A stretch of 27,935 nucleotides of DNA, from IMG/VR virus record IMGVR_UViG_3300025168_000497, positions 1-27,935 of that record, one strand, 5' to 3'. Below the pieces are notes generated by a model that worked only from the letters and a program-made list of their open reading frames with translations, did no database searches and was not told the origin of the DNA. Of this stretch, positions 6,737-17,210 are shown one piece after another. How positions within the stretch are numbered: the stretch's first letter is position 1; every line of letters begins with the position of its first letter. Source of the stretch: a virus. The position numbers and the translations under genes were made by a program.

Positions 6737-6951
6737 AGGTTAGGGTTTTTAGGTCTACCAAGTGCTACCCATTCCTCTACAGTACCACCGTTTAAAAGCG
6801 TTACCGTTCCATTTTGCCAGAGTATAAGGCGCTTTTGTCGGTGTTTGTATTCTTGTTCTTGTACGTCTAGCTCTTTTTGTACCTCGTCGGCGTACGCGTA
6901 CGGGTTGTTAGCAAATACTTGCTCTACGAATTGTTCAAATAATCGGCTCAT
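6733..6951 (-). CDS. Hypothetical protein, Glu/Gln-rich helix
   Basis: A 72-residue protein. Residues 20-42 (ADEVQKELDVQEQEYKHRQK) look like one long charged helix, followed by a short beta-rich tail (GTVTLLNGGTVEEWVALG). Unknown function. It starts 2 bp after the stop of the previous gene and overlaps the next by 4 bp. Confidence 0.65.
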   Translation of the reverse strand: MSRLFEQFVEQVFANNPYAYADEVQKELDVQEQEYKHRQKRLILWQNGTVTLLNGGTVEEWVALGRPKNPNL

Positions 6952-6953
6952 AA

Positions 6954-7160
6954 TTATAGTTTAATATTTGGTTTTAGTTCATTTAGTTTATTAATACAAT
7001 ATTTAAGTTTAGTTTTATTAATTGTATTTTGTATGTATACATTTTCTAAACTTTCTACGGTAGTTTCATTTTCTAGCGTTTCGTTTAGCGTGTTTTTTTG
7101 TATAGTCTCTAGCAAAAATACTATGTTTTCTACTAGCCCTTTTTTTTCTTGTTGTGTCAT
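6954..7160 (-). CDS. Hypothetical protein, Asn/Leu/Thr-rich helix
   Basis: A 68-residue protein of mostly helical character, with evenly spaced Leu/Ile (VENIVFLLETIQ, NKTKLKYCINKLNEL) that could form a coiled coil. It starts within the stop of the HTH gene at 7160, suggesting coupled translation. Base composition is more AT-rich than in the genes around it. Function unknown. Confidence 0.65.
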   Translation of the reverse strand: MTQQEKKGLVENIVFLLETIQKNTLNETLENETTVESLENVYIQNTINKTKLKYCINKLNELKPNIKL

Positions 7161-7492
7161 TACTTAATATTTAAAGAATTAATAAGGTCGTTTACTTCGC
7201 CTACGGGGTCATAGTCTGAGTTAAAAATATGTTTAGCCTTAGAGACTAATTTATACTCCGCTACCGTAGTTACTTTAAGGCTACCGTCTTTAGTTCTAAA
7301 CCTTGTAGGTACTTTACGCGGTAAACTTATTATAGTTAAGTCGTCCCCGTTTTTTTCAAAGTGTCGGTTAAGTTTAAATACTGTAGACGCTAGCCTAGTG
7401 TTACCTAGTTCGTCCGTACATTGTTTTTGAGTAATACTATCGTTGTCTCTAAGATACGCTAGTAGTCTGGTTAGGTGCGTGTTTTCTCGCAT
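7160..7492 (-). CDS. Helix-turn-helix protein (HTH_39-like) downstream of hammerhead ribozyme 2
   Basis: A 110-residue protein. Residues about 5-40 (LTRLLAYLRDNDSITQKQCT, then ELGNTRLASTVFKLNR) match the winged-helix-like domain seen in small phage proteins, where the second helix is followed by RL..TVFKLN. Probably a DNA-binding regulator. If ribozyme 2 (7511-7568) cleaves, the mRNA for this gene and those after it starts at 7516 with a 24-nt leader and a 5'-OH. That could alter its stability and the ratio of proteins from this operon. The start at 7492 is supported by the leader, which closely resembles that of the gene at 8420. Confidence 0.8.
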   Translation of the reverse strand: MRENTHLTRLLAYLRDNDSITQKQCTDELGNTRLASTVFKLNRHFEKNGDDLTIISLPRKVPTRFRTKDGSLKVTTVAEYKLVSKAKHIFNSDYDPVGEVNDLINSLNIK

Positions 7493-7510
7493 AATAATAA
7501 ATTTTAATTA

Positions 7511-7568
7511 GTTAAAGACCCTAGCAACTCGTACTAGGGTTTCGCTCTTTTGAGCTCATCAGTTTAAC
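7511..7568 (-). ncRNA. Hammerhead ribozyme 2 (type I)
   Basis: Minus-strand elements in order: stem I GTTAAA (7568-7563), core CTGATGA, stem II GCTC-AAAA-GAGC, core GAAA, stem III CCCTAG/CTAGGG with a 9-nt loop, cleavage triplet GTC (7519-7517) and stem I TTTAAC (7516-7511). All invariant core positions are present and all three stems pair perfectly. Predicted cut between 7517 and 7516. The 5' strand of stem I contains the TAA stop of the upstream 94-aa gene, and the downstream gene starts 24 nt after the cut. Compared with copy 1, stems I, II and III differ by compensating base changes, which is strong evidence for selected RNA structure. Confidence 0.93.
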
Positions 7569-7848
7569 ATTCGTCTAAACGCTCGCCGTACCCGTCGTAC
7601 TCGATAGTAGCGTAGCGTTCTTTTTTATACGGGTAGTTATTCTCGTAACAGTCGTTACAATAATGCCCCGTATATATACCGTACCAATCGGTACGCTTTT
7701 CGGTGTCGGGTTTAAAGTCTCTACACCCTTTACAAGAGTGCTCTTTATAATCTATAAACCAAATACCCCTAGTCTCGTCTAACTCGTCTAGGTGGTCTAC
7801 CGTTACCGTCTCGTCGGTGTTGTCTAGTGTACATACATATCTTACCAT
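7564..7848 (-). CDS. Small zinc-ribbon-like protein
   Basis: A 94-residue acidic protein. CKGC (about residues 39-42) and CNDC (about 65-68) with nearby His suggest one structural zinc site. The rest is rich in Asp, Glu and Tyr. I do not recognise a family. It is the last of three ORFs between the two hammerhead ribozymes, and its stop codon lies inside stem I of ribozyme 2, so translation to the end could interfere with ribozyme folding. It overlaps the previous gene by 1 bp. Confidence 0.75.
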   Translation of the reverse strand: MVRYVCTLDNTDETVTVDHLDELDETRGIWFIDYKEHSCKGCRDFKPDTEKRTDWYGIYTGHYCNDCYENNYPYKKERYATIEYDGYGERLDEC

Positions 7849-8204
7849 TAGTCTAAGTTTTCTAGTATTAAGTCTATTATATACTCGTTTAATTTAGCGC
7901 GCTTATCGTTGCTTATTTCTACTTTAGTACGTAAGTCTATAAAATGTTTGTTAGAATATACTATAGTGTCTACCGCTACGTCTACTATTTGGCTCGGCAT
8001 TTCTACGGGCTCTTCGGTGTCGTAACTCCATACTACCCACTCGTCCATATATTTACATATACCGTCTTTAAGGTTTTTAGGTCTACTATCTTTAGTACAG
8101 TCTTTTAGTATTTCTCTACTTAGTACGCTCTTAGCTAGTTCTTTTAAATTGGTAGGGTTTTTAAACCTAGTTAATTTACCCCCCTCTAATATTCCGTATT
8201 TCAT
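7848..8204 (-). CDS. Hypothetical protein between the ribozymes
   Basis: A 118-residue protein that I do not recognise. The N-terminal half is basic and helical (NLKELAKSVLSREILKDC), then WVVWSYDTEEPVEMPSQIV, and the C-terminal part is a charged helix (KRAKLNEYIIDLILENL). It is the second of three ORFs on the predicted 928-nt RNA released by the hammerhead ribozymes. Confidence 0.72.
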   Translation of the reverse strand: MKYGILEGGKLTRFKNPTNLKELAKSVLSREILKDCTKDSRPKNLKDGICKYMDEWVVWSYDTEEPVEMPSQIVDVAVDTIVYSNKHFIDLRTKVEISNDKRAKLNEYIIDLILENLD

Positions 8205-8207
8205 TGT

Positions 8208-8420
8208 TTATTGTTTTTTAGCGTCCTCTACCCAATTTTCTAAATTTGGTTTAGAGACTGTTAGTACTTCTAGTAATTGGTCGCCTATCGTTTGTTTAAC
8301 GTCTTGTATAGCGTGCTTTATAGCTCTCTCTAGTGCGCCGTCTCGGTAGGCGTCTATTCCGTCGTCGGCAGTTTCTAAACCTTTGGCAAATACAAATAGT
8401 CTTTTTTCTAAGTCAGTCAT
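8208..8420 (-). CDS. Hypothetical protein directly downstream of hammerhead ribozyme 1
   Basis: A 70-residue helical acidic protein (MTDLEKRLFVFAKGLETADD and onward) with no recognised domain. The ATG at 8420 is 24 nt after the predicted ribozyme 1 cut, and the sequence just before it (AATTTTATTATT) nearly equals that before the gene at 7492. It would be the first ORF on the released RNA. It stops 3 bp before the next gene. Confidence 0.72.
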   Translation of the reverse strand: MTDLEKRLFVFAKGLETADDGIDAYRDGALERAIKHAIQDVKQTIGDQLLEVLTVSKPNLENWVEDAKKQ

Positions 8421-8438
8421 AATAATAAAATTTAGTTA

Positions 8439-8497
8439 GTTATAGACGCTAGCAACTTGCTACTAGCGTTTCGCCTTTATAGGCTCATCAGTATAAC
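8439..8497 (-). ncRNA. Hammerhead ribozyme 1 (type I)
   Basis: Minus-strand elements in order: stem I GTTATA (8497-8492), core CTGATGA, stem II GCCT-ATAA-AGGC, core GAAA, stem III CGCTAG/CTAGCG with a 10-nt loop, cleavage triplet GTC (8447-8445) and stem I TATAAC (8444-8439). The open ends are in stem I, so it is type I. Predicted cut between 8445 and 8444, leaving a 24-nt leader on the gene at 8420. It sits at the 3' end of a long structured leader and downstream of the best promoter of the window. The 59-nt size is typical. Confidence 0.93.
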
Positions 8498-8499
8498 GG

Positions 8500-8722
8500 G
8501 TATTTAGGTACGCCCCCTATGGCGTCAGCTTGATAAGTTAAAAACGTCCTAACGATTAAAGTACTTAGCGTTTGTACTCGTATAGCATTACTCTAACCTC
8601 AAAGCCTCCCGCGTTCCGCGTTTGGGTTTCCCTTACCCCTAGGTTAGTACTATAGCCGTCCGTAGCATTTTACGTATATAACTATATCAATATGTCAAAC
8701 AACGTGCCCCCTATCTCGAAAG
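8500..8722 (-). ncRNA. Structured 5' leader RNA upstream of hammerhead 1
   Basis: No ORF. Several pairings nest on the minus strand. The outer stem is 8650-8654 with 8581-8585, and the inner 7-bp stem CTAACCT/AGGTTAG is 8641-8647 with 8593-8599. This encloses two small hairpins, GGG-AAA-CCC (8624-8632) and CGCG-GAA-CGCG (8610-8620). Further down are AGTAC/GTACT (8574-8578 with 8560-8564) and ACGCC/GGCGT (8521-8525 with 8510-8514). I do not recognise a known riboswitch or ribozyme. If transcribed from the promoter at 8729-8759 and cut by ribozyme 1, it becomes a separate RNA of about 280 nt. Confidence 0.6.
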
Positions 8723-8728
8723 CATACG

Positions 8729-8759
8729 CAAATGTAAATTAAAATTTACAGTTACGCAA
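8729..8759 (-). promoter_or_regulatory. Bacteroidota-type promoter for the early operon
   Basis: Minus strand TTG (8759-8757), 20 bp spacer, then TACATTTG (8736-8729), matching the Bacteroidota -33/-7 consensus TTTG/TTG and TAnnTTTG. Transcription would start near 8722 and run into the structured leader, ribozyme 1 and the small-ORF/replication operon. No other non-coding stretch that I checked on this strand gives as good a match. Confidence 0.6.
8733..8750. promoter_or_regulatory. Palindromic operator candidate
   Basis: Perfect inverted repeat TGTAAATT-AA-AATTTACA, lying between and partly over the -7 and -33 elements of the promoter at 8729-8759. This placement is ideal for a dimeric repressor. 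Candidate binders in the window are the HTH proteins at 5295-5510 and 7160-7492. Confidence 0.55.
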
Positions 8760-8780
8760 GCACGCAAGCAATATTTTTTT

Positions 8781-8996
8781 TACGTTTGAATTTCTGCGCC
8801 GTAAATATGTAGGGGTGCGTAGGTGCGTATACGAAATATATTTTACATATACAAACACCGCGCTACAACCCTAGTGTTTATGCGGTTTTTTATTATCTTT
8901 TGTTTTTGATGTACTCGTACTAGAGAAAGTACAAAGTCTCTTAGAGAGGCTAAAAATAGCCTAAAATAAAATATATAATATTTTACATTTGAATTT
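8781..8996. repeat. Pair of 13-bp direct repeats TACRTTTGAATTT
   Basis: TACGTTTGAATTT at 8781-8793 and TACATTTGAATTT at 8984-8996 are 203 bp apart in the same orientation. Each contains TAnnTTTG, the Bacteroidota -7 motif, reading on the plus strand. No plus-strand gene follows and no clear -33 partner is present, so a protein-binding repeat is as likely as antisense promoters. Confidence 0.4.
8830..8995. other. Gene-free region between phosphoesterase and early promoter
   Basis: Part of the 575-bp gene-free region. It includes hairpin AGGCTA-AAAA-TAGCCT (8947-8962), which lacks a T run on either strand, and AAACAC/GTGTTT pairing near 8858-8884 that overlaps a CCGC/GCGG pairing. I see no ORF. 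It may end late transcription or belong to an origin. Confidence 0.35.
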
Positions 8997-10087
8997 TAAA
9001 AGTAGTGGGTAAGTCGGGCTATTTGACCGTCTTTTTTAGAGTGAATAAAACCCTCTACGGCTTTTTTACTGCCCGTATATCCTTTACGAGAGTGCCAACT
9101 ATCCGACCCCGAGGGGCTACGCAAGTACTCAATAGTTACCCCTATATAGTCTTTAGCGTCTCTATATTTATACTTTATTTTGTGGTGCAAATGGTGTAAA
9201 TACCAATACCTATATAAGGTACTAGACCAATCTGTAGGGCGTTCGTTAGCCATAAGTAGGGGTAAGTTATCTACTTTAGCCCCGTCGCCATGCTCTAAAC
9301 CTATTAAGCTATTACCGTACTTATAGTATTTTCTATGCGACGCGCCCGCGTCTACTCTTACGTCTTTAGTTTTTCTAAACCAAGCCTTTATAGTCTTGGC
9401 TAGGTAGTGCCCGCTCTGGTAGTCATGGTTACTCATAGAGTGTACGCAATCAACGGGGGCTATATGGCGTAGCATCTCTATAACTTTTACGTAGAGCTCT
9501 AGGGCTACGTCGTAAAACTCCCACCATTTACCGCCGTCGGTGTCTTGGTGCGTTCCTTTTGTAGTAGTGTTATATACGTTATCAATATGTAGTATATCGT
9601 TTCCTAAGCATAATAAAACCCTATCTATATTAAAGCCCTTAGACTTATCTATAAGCCCTTGTACGCCCTCTAAAACGCGTTTTACTGCTATATCTACGTT
9701 ATACTCGTCGCCCGTTTCTAAAGCGTTAGCGTATTTACCTATATGAACGTCGGCGGGGTTTATAACTAATAAGTGTCCGTCTTTAGCTTTACGTTGTATA
9801 TACTTGTAAGTAGGTGCGTGGGCGTTTACGTAGTCTTGTACCTTTTTAAATATCTGTAGGTCGTCGCGGTTTTGTTTTGTAACAATGCTAAAACGTGGCT
9901 CGCCTTTAAAGTTCTGCCAATGCTTAACGCTTACTACGTCTTTTTTATGTATTCCCCTCTCTTTAAGGTGTAGCTCTAGTAATGAGTTATCGTTTATATT
10001 TTCGACGTACTCGCCCCTATGTTTTTTTATAAGGTCTACCTCTTCGGGTGCTAACCTCATACGGTTAAAGCTATCGGGCTTACTCAT
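8996..10087 (-). CDS. Calcineurin-like metallophosphoesterase
   Basis: A 363-residue protein with the ordered metal-binding motifs of the superfamily: DVH (113-115), GND (162-164, in place of GD), NHD (220-222, the GNHD position), EHGD (265-268, in place of GHxH) and HHLHH (298-302). The N-terminal ~100 residues have a helix-rich region (APEEVDLIKKHRGEYVENIN) that may bind DNA. Phage members of this superfamily are often Mre11/SbcD-like nucleases or phosphatases; substrate cannot be told here. It is the last gene of the late transcription unit before the large gene-free region and overlaps the preceding membrane-protein gene by 8 bp. Confidence 0.88.
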   Translation of the reverse strand: MSKPDSFNRMRLAPEEVDLIKKHRGEYVENINDNSLLELHLKERGIHKKDVVSVKHWQNFKGEPRFSIVTKQNRDDLQIFKKVQDYVNAHAPTYKYIQRKAKDGHLLVINPADVHIGKYANALETGDEYNVDIAVKRVLEGVQGLIDKSKGFNIDRVLLCLGNDILHIDNVYNTTTKGTHQDTDGGKWWEFYDVALELYVKVIEMLRHIAPVDCVHSMSNHDYQSGHYLAKTIKAWFRKTKDVRVDAGASHRKYYKYGNSLIGLEHGDGAKVDNLPLLMANERPTDWSSTLYRYWYLHHLHHKIKYKYRDAKDYIGVTIEYLRSPSGSDSWHSRKGYTGSKKAVEGFIHSKKDGQIARLTHYF

Positions 10088-16955: not shown

Positions 16956-17210
16956 ATGAAACGTAGAAAAAAGACGGGCGAGAAAGCCCTATTTTTTAAG
17001 ATATGGCAAACACGCCCGCACGTATGTACTAACTGTAAAGAGCATTTAGGTAACGAGGCTAAAGCGTGGCACTTTGCCCATATAAAACCTAAAGGCTTAT
17101 ATCCCGAGTTAAGACTAGACCCCGACAATATTAGACTACTCTGTTACGAGTGTCATTATGCCCTAGACTTTCAAAGTAAAGATAAGTTTATAGCCCGCTC
17201 TCGCGAATAA
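16956..17210 (+). CDS. HNH endonuclease, only plus-strand gene
   Basis: An 84-residue protein. A zinc-binding CxxC pair (C24, C27), the HNH core (HFAHIKPKG with H39 and H42, N58 in LDPDNIRLLC) and a second CxxCH (C63, C66, H67) are all present, so it should be active. Small HNH proteins act in packaging or as homing nucleases. It is inserted between the protease and the scaffold, in opposite orientation, with its 3' end overlapping the protease gene by 23 bp. AT-rich sequence precedes its start, but no clear promoter is visible. The isolated orientation suggests a mobile insertion. Confidence 0.9.
   Translation: MKRRKKTGEKALFFKIWQTRPHVCTNCKEHLGNEAKAWHFAHIKPKGLYPELRLDPDNIRLLCYECHYALDFQSKDKFIARSRE

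Follow-up and report, generated by a model that had tools for sequence, protein, structure and literature searches.

Gene organization of the locus

The stretch of viral DNA that we analyzed, hereafter the window, spans all 27,935 nucleotides of IMG/VR record IMGVR_UViG_3300025168_000497. Among the early genes of this marine bacterial virus, two predicted hammerhead ribozymes, HH-A and HH-B, are located at gene boundaries on the minus strand. The features of the region are listed here from high to low coordinates, with the ORFs being mechanical calls.

8658 to 8703, minus strand: conserved TTTGACATATTGATATAGTTATATACG, a possible early promoter (low confidence), kept in contig L004 and nearly so in L008
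8510 to 8525, minus strand: hairpin ACGCC/GGCGT just upstream of HH-A, resembling the extra hairpin of RAGATH-1 hammerheads
8439 to 8497, minus strand: predicted type I hammerhead ribozyme A (HH-A), based on sequence, fold, covariance model R2, and its retention in L004, L005, L006, and L008
8421 to 8444, minus strand: 24-nt A/T-rich leader after predicted cut A, ending at the ATG of the 70-aa ORF; homology among relatives stops here
8208 to 8420, minus strand: 70-aa ORF, the variable slot behind HH-A
7848 to 8204, minus strand: 118-aa ORF, function not assigned, with no preceding hammerhead in the window
7564 to 7848, minus strand: 94-aa ORF with a CxxC...CxxC pattern, function not assigned
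7511 to 7568, minus strand: predicted type I hammerhead ribozyme B (HH-B), based on sequence, fold, R2, and the same downstream gene in L004, L005, L006, and L008
7493 to 7516, minus strand: 24-nt A/T-rich leader after predicted cut B, ending at the ATG of the 110-aa ORF
7160 to 7492, minus strand: 110-aa winged-helix-like protein (weak Pfam HTH_39 match; phrog_4973)

The 70-aa ORF retrieved no Pfam match and no significant PHROG match, and the promoter candidate yielded no significant model. The hairpin upstream of HH-A reads GCGCC/GGCGC in L008, a compensating change. Within the early leader, a possible branched structure (CTAACCT...AGGTTAG) lies at 8590-8650 on the minus strand; it is also found in L004, and L008 has a short, different sequence in its place. 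A piece of about 140 bp (8835-8971), flanked by the early leader and the exonuclease-like gene, has the opposite orientation to its counterparts in contigs L007 (1100-1237) and L009 (7025-7151), with 75-77% identity, and the L007 copy contains a terminator-like hairpin followed by a T-run. This difference in orientation may reflect an inversion or the re-insertion of a terminator. Elsewhere in the window, an 84-aa ORF at 16956-17210 on the plus strand, opposite to its neighboring genes, carries an HNH-like pattern (CTNC...HFAHIKP...LLCYECH) and is possibly an inserted HNH endonuclease.

Sequence and structure of the two hammerheads

On the minus strand, HH-A (8497-8439) reads GTTATA-CTGATGA-GCCT(ATAA)AGGC-GAA-ACGCTAG...CTAGCGT-C^TATAAC and HH-B (7568-7511) reads GTTAAA-CTGATGA-GCTC(AAAA)GAGC-GAA-ACCCTAG...CTAGGGT-C^TTTAAC, with predicted cuts (^) at 8445/8444 and 7517/7516, respectively. 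Both copies contain the type I core, CTGATGA and GAAA, together with a GTC cleavage triplet of the NUH form, and both form three helices, open at stem I and backed by covariation, i.e., a 6-bp stem I, a 4-bp stem II, and a long stem III closed by an A-U pair. The copies differ from each other by compensating changes at one pair of stem I, several of stem II, and one of stem III. The 94-aa ORF ends in a stop codon that overlaps stem I of HH-B.

The pattern CTGATGA-N12-GAAA, with at most one mismatch allowed, has two matches in the window against 0.11 expected, and none of 100 shuffles contained two or more, which excludes a chance pattern. A search of the window for a further degenerate hammerhead returned nothing above chance. 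By their sequences, HH-A and HH-B are genuine type I hammerheads, and self-cleavage is predicted for both. The original prediction, which had placed two such ribozymes on the minus strand at these positions, is confirmed for both copies; its cut sites, its two 24-nt leaders, and its 928-nt interval between the cuts (8444-7517) are all correct, and the compensating changes it described are present in all three stems.

Covariance model searches

To avoid circular reasoning, the covariance model R2 was built from unrelated phages alone, with the window and its close relatives left out. In the window, R2 matched HH-A (53.9 bits, E 1.6e-12) and HH-B (52.1 bits, E 4.9e-12) and nothing else. At the curated gathering thresholds of Rfam, no family matched in the window and both ribozymes were missed. 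Below those thresholds, three hammerhead families match at the two sites, the best match being Hammerhead_HH9 (RF02275) at HH-B with 32.1 bits and an E value of 1.1e-5. One copy in L004 passes the Hammerhead_1 model (RF00163), at 34.2 against a cut-off of 34, and the gathering thresholds gave only four matches across 11 related sources with more than 50 copies. The window copies share the catalytic core and three helices with Hammerhead_1 and Hammerhead_HH9 but score below their curated cut-offs, a cut-off being a curation threshold rather than a biochemical property. A sub-threshold score for both copies had been named in advance as evidence against the prediction; the Rfam cut-offs give exactly that result, yet it is overruled by the independent model R2, which finds both copies with E values of about 1e-12. 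HH-A also aligns to the full RAGATH-1 hammerhead model (RF03152), upstream hairpin included, but its 29.2 bits fall far short of the cut-off of 56.3 and do not place it in that family; HH-B has no counterpart of the extra hairpin and no RAGATH-1 match. The Rfam cut-offs hide most copies of this sub-type, which has consequently been overlooked in phage annotation.

Hammerheads and accessory ORFs in close relatives

The same operon is found in IMG/VR contigs L004, L005, L006, and L008, all of which retain HH-A and HH-B, and in all four HH-B precedes the same gene. L008 has two hammerheads and the other three contigs each carry a third, and the layout is not a fixed pair around a cassette. This third hammerhead (C) precedes the 118-aa ORF in L004 (where the ORF has 115 aa) and L006, and in L005 it precedes an additional 56-aa ORF that is absent from the other relatives. 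The window lacks hammerhead C, and its 70-aa ORF runs straight into the 118-aa ORF. Behind the 56-aa ORF of L005, at 8978-9160, there is a bare leader (TTTAACTAACTAAAATTTATTATT-ATG) in front of the 118-aa ORF, with the ribozyme lacking.

The slot behind HH-A holds an ORF of 70 aa in the window versus 79, 99, 80, and 143 aa in the relatives, and only the 99-aa and 143-aa ORFs are related to each other (E 1e-8). DNA homology among the relatives is lost at most a few bases from the slot ORF's start codon. The 94-aa ORF is missing from L004 and L005. The closest hammerhead-free relatives are L007, whose exonuclease-like protein is 96% identical, and L009; neither has hammerheads or accessory ORFs, and in both the next gene after the exonuclease-like one encodes the homologue of the 110-aa winged-helix protein. 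In the small set compared, the ribozymes and the accessory ORFs thus come and go together, and close relatives that differ in the number of ribozymes (zero, two, or three) around the exchanged ORFs offer a natural comparison.

When the model was run on 39 other relatives, no hammerhead of this type was found in any (0/39), which would make the function dispensable, with the reservation that many of these contigs are fragments and such absences are weak. By terminase, the nearest named relatives are Flavobacterium and Cellulophaga phages. Flavobacterium phage 11b, Cellulophaga phi10:1, snork6-1, and Polaribacter P12002L, which are similar in terminase or exonuclease, have no such hammerhead, and as a result no cultured host is at hand. 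DNA searches of isolated phages with window positions 6900-8900 and with the array contigs described below returned no match.

A hammerhead sub-type in IMG/VR and its placement between genes

Scans of IMG/VR retrieved at least 212 distinct members of this hammerhead sub-type in at least 116 loci; since the loci were picked by a sequence core pattern, and some are related to each other, these are minimum numbers rather than frequencies for all phages. In the first scan, only the core, the cleavage triplet, and the 3' strand of stem I were fixed, and the free 5' strand of stem I pairs at 6/6 positions in 39 of 40 distinct matches. In the second, only the core and loop II were fixed; among the matches listed away from contig ends, the two free stem II pairs are kept in 87/87, and 84 of the 87 matches listed are complete hammerheads. 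An alignment of 96 model matches (82 distinct) has 97.9% of its cells paired and contains 403 double-sided changes versus 113.5 in shuffles, with 15 of 17 pairs changing on both sides, and no covariation signal remained when the partners were slid. This alignment was fitted to the model, whereas the two pattern scans were not.

Stem I is exactly 6 bp long in 98/106 copies and has a G+C content of 25%, and in thermodynamic folds with long flanks it often does not form. The sub-type includes a 13-nt stem II form with a conserved U-N-A-A-U loop II and a 12-nt form to which the window's group belongs; an A/A flank is present in 74/106 copies, and those of the window have other flanks. The constant length of stem I, the A/A flank, and the loop II consensus are the features that would bear on a tertiary contact between the stem I and loop II regions, the kind of contact found in fast natural hammerheads. 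The number of hammerheads per contig ranges from 1 to 14, the largest array being that of the 39.8-kb contig G007 (IMGVR_UViG_3300042884_000166), with 14 hammerheads on one strand between 10944 and 35329.

The placement of these ribozymes relative to genes is narrow. In the first set, an ATG lies 15-45 nt past the cut in 70/87 cases versus 16% at random sites, and among the matches listed from the second scan an ORF-opening ATG lies 10-45 nt past the cut in 69/81, with a median of 26. In 109/212 cases, versus 6.4% for random positions, the upstream ORF ends with a stop codon located in the ribozyme's 5' part. Together, the stop overlap and the short distance from cut to ATG indicate that the ribozyme occupies the interval from one gene to the next. 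Hammerheads on both strands of one locus were seen in none of the 116 loci listed. The resulting rule is testable: the ribozyme begins at a stop codon, cuts some 26 nt ahead of the following start codon, and is always on the coding strand.

In contigs L095, L155, L156, L157, and L158, a hammerhead stands directly before a single-subunit RNA polymerase gene (PF00940; 517-519 and 794 aa), and L095, L157, and L158 also have one before an ATP-dependent DNA ligase gene; these junctions occur in diverged contigs. Annotation of the genes behind hammerheads as defense genes gave just weak or isolated matches.

Probable intercistronic cleavage and alternative explanations

We consider it probable that HH-A and HH-B act as intercistronic cutters of a polycistronic transcript. 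What is observed is that the ribozymes have the hammerhead structure, that covariation conserves it, and that they lie between a stop codon and a start codon, and the proposal of tandem type I hammerheads in an early-side phage operon, positioned to dissect a polycistronic RNA, is supported. The early transcript would start upstream of about 8600. HH-A would then trim a structured leader, which would measure roughly 200 nt should the promoter-like site be correct, and HH-B would split off the accessory ORFs (70, 118, and 94 aa), leaving the winged-helix and replication-side genes on the downstream RNA. The two ends made by a hammerhead are a 2',3'-cyclic phosphate and a 5'-OH. Assuming cleavage in the cell, each cut would produce a downstream mRNA that opens with a 5'-OH and an A/T-rich leader of 24 nt (across the family, about 26 nt would precede the start codon) and an upstream mRNA ending in the stem II and III hairpins of the ribozyme with the cyclic phosphate. 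Each piece might thereby gain independent stability and translation, separating the fates of neighboring cistrons, and accessory ORFs might be easily exchanged because a new gene would come behind a standard ribozyme-leader junction. The weakness of stem I fits fast product release and would speak against ligation. The short A/U-rich stem I and the lack of a hammerhead in the 39 other relatives are points against the cutter reading; in the 2011 study of phage hammerheads, 4 of 18 consensus-conforming candidates failed to cleave in vitro (PMC3088659).

The exchange of ORFs could also be read the other way around, with the hammerheads mainly serving to spread accessory genes, ribozyme and leader forming a conserved seam for ORF swaps by homologous recombination and cleavage being secondary or limiting the harm of an inserted gene to its neighbors. 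The different slot ORF behind HH-A in each relative, with DNA homology ending near its ATG, would fit such a seam, as would the bare leader of L005, which recombination in the leader would leave behind, and the lack of both accessory ORFs and ribozymes in L007 and L009. Covariation, however, keeps RNA pairing, whereas a DNA seam would keep sequence, and the ribozymes of other phages precede core genes (RNA polymerase, ligase), so that we regard this explanation as unlikely. It is quite unlikely, in our estimate, that cleavage is regulated, i.e., that the ribozyme is kept open by a ribosome halting within stem I (or by a ligand or protein), so that cutting would reflect whether the upstream gene is being translated. 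The overlap of upstream stop codons with the 5' part of the ribozyme in about half of the 212 copies and the weakness of stem I are both compatible with such control; compact phage genomes, however, tend to put stops there anyway, HH-A has no translated ORF directly upstream, and no aptamer-like domain was seen.

Cuts at both sites would free a piece with three complete ORFs, and hammerheads are also able to ligate; one might therefore suppose that the HH-A/HH-B pair excises a 928-nt RNA (8444-7517) that is possibly ligated to a circular mRNA. We hold this to be very improbable. Against the pair bracketing the cassette as a functional unit, as first proposed, stand the three ribozymes at other spacings in relatives, the range from one to as many as 14 per contig elsewhere, and the tie of each ribozyme to its own junction. 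As for a circle, the GTTAAA strand of HH-B meets the TATAAC from cut A with one mismatch (A-A), the stem I difference between HH-A and HH-B is preserved in L004, L005, L006, and L008, stem I is weak, and in 2011 circular or spliced products were looked for in similar arrays without success (PMC3088659). Excision of the 928-nt RNA is possible, and its circularization, part of the original prediction, is unsupported. That the copies are inactive relics, or hammerhead-like sequences without present function, is scarcely credible: their scores below the Rfam thresholds and their patchy distribution would suit decay, but the core is invariant and the stems change in compensation across 82 sequences, the 6-bp stem I persists in 98/106, and loop II is conserved in the 13-nt form.

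Beyond the window, intercistronic cutting might be a widespread phage strategy in which many accessory and core early genes are carried as ribozyme-ended modules, hammerhead arrays at the stop-to-start junctions replacing processing by host RNases, with 5'-OH mRNAs escaping 5'-end-dependent decay and genes interchangeable between phages; we put this forward as a tentative and somewhat doubtful extension.

Comparison with known systems

Hammerheads had been taken to occur singly in phages, but this premise does not hold, as clustered prophage hammerheads were already published in 2011. Perreault et al. described prophages in which several hammerheads border genes or short blocks of genes and proposed that these ribozymes cut long phage transcripts into operon- or gene-length mRNAs; three prophage arrays were cleaved in vitro and one of them, a triple array, also in E. 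coli, and circular, spliced, or ligated products were sought and none detected (PMC3088659). The window likewise holds two equally oriented hammerheads bordering phage genes, and its system is a further example of these clusters, sharing with them several hammerheads per transcript unit, the flanking of genes, and the same processing hypothesis. It differs in its lineage, an IMG/VR phage, and in a uniform sub-type with a 6-bp stem I that mostly lies under Rfam cut-offs, as well as in the quantified stop-to-start placement, arrays that reach 14 copies, and a slot whose ORF can be exchanged. In haloviruses HF1 and HF2, the HHphage variant cuts 13 nt before the start codon of the first gene of an early operon, and an RNA 5' end maps at most 3 nt from the cut (PMC3088659). 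The likeness is a hammerhead shortly before an early-operon gene; the HF1/HF2 ribozyme differs in having a variant core and belonging to an archaeal virus, with no array reported (PMC3088659).

A 2017 review called the roles of prokaryotic hammerheads an open question (PMC6155905), and a 2023 paper stated that it is unknown why ribozymes are enriched near phage genes (PMC10085705). A literature search that covered only a minority of subscription journals found no published description of the stop-to-start placement, of arrays this large, or of exchanged slots, and we therefore claim no priority. The sub-type bears on the open role of prokaryotic hammerheads through its sharp placement rule and its natural comparisons.

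The T7 early transcript is cut by host RNase III at comparable gene junctions. Here the likeness is functional only: both systems cut between early cistrons, and the hammerheads of some array phages would cut before RNA polymerase and DNA ligase genes, T7-like in function. In contrast to the RNase III sites, the hammerheads would be RNA that cuts itself, leaving a 5'-OH instead of a 5'-phosphate and needing no host enzyme.
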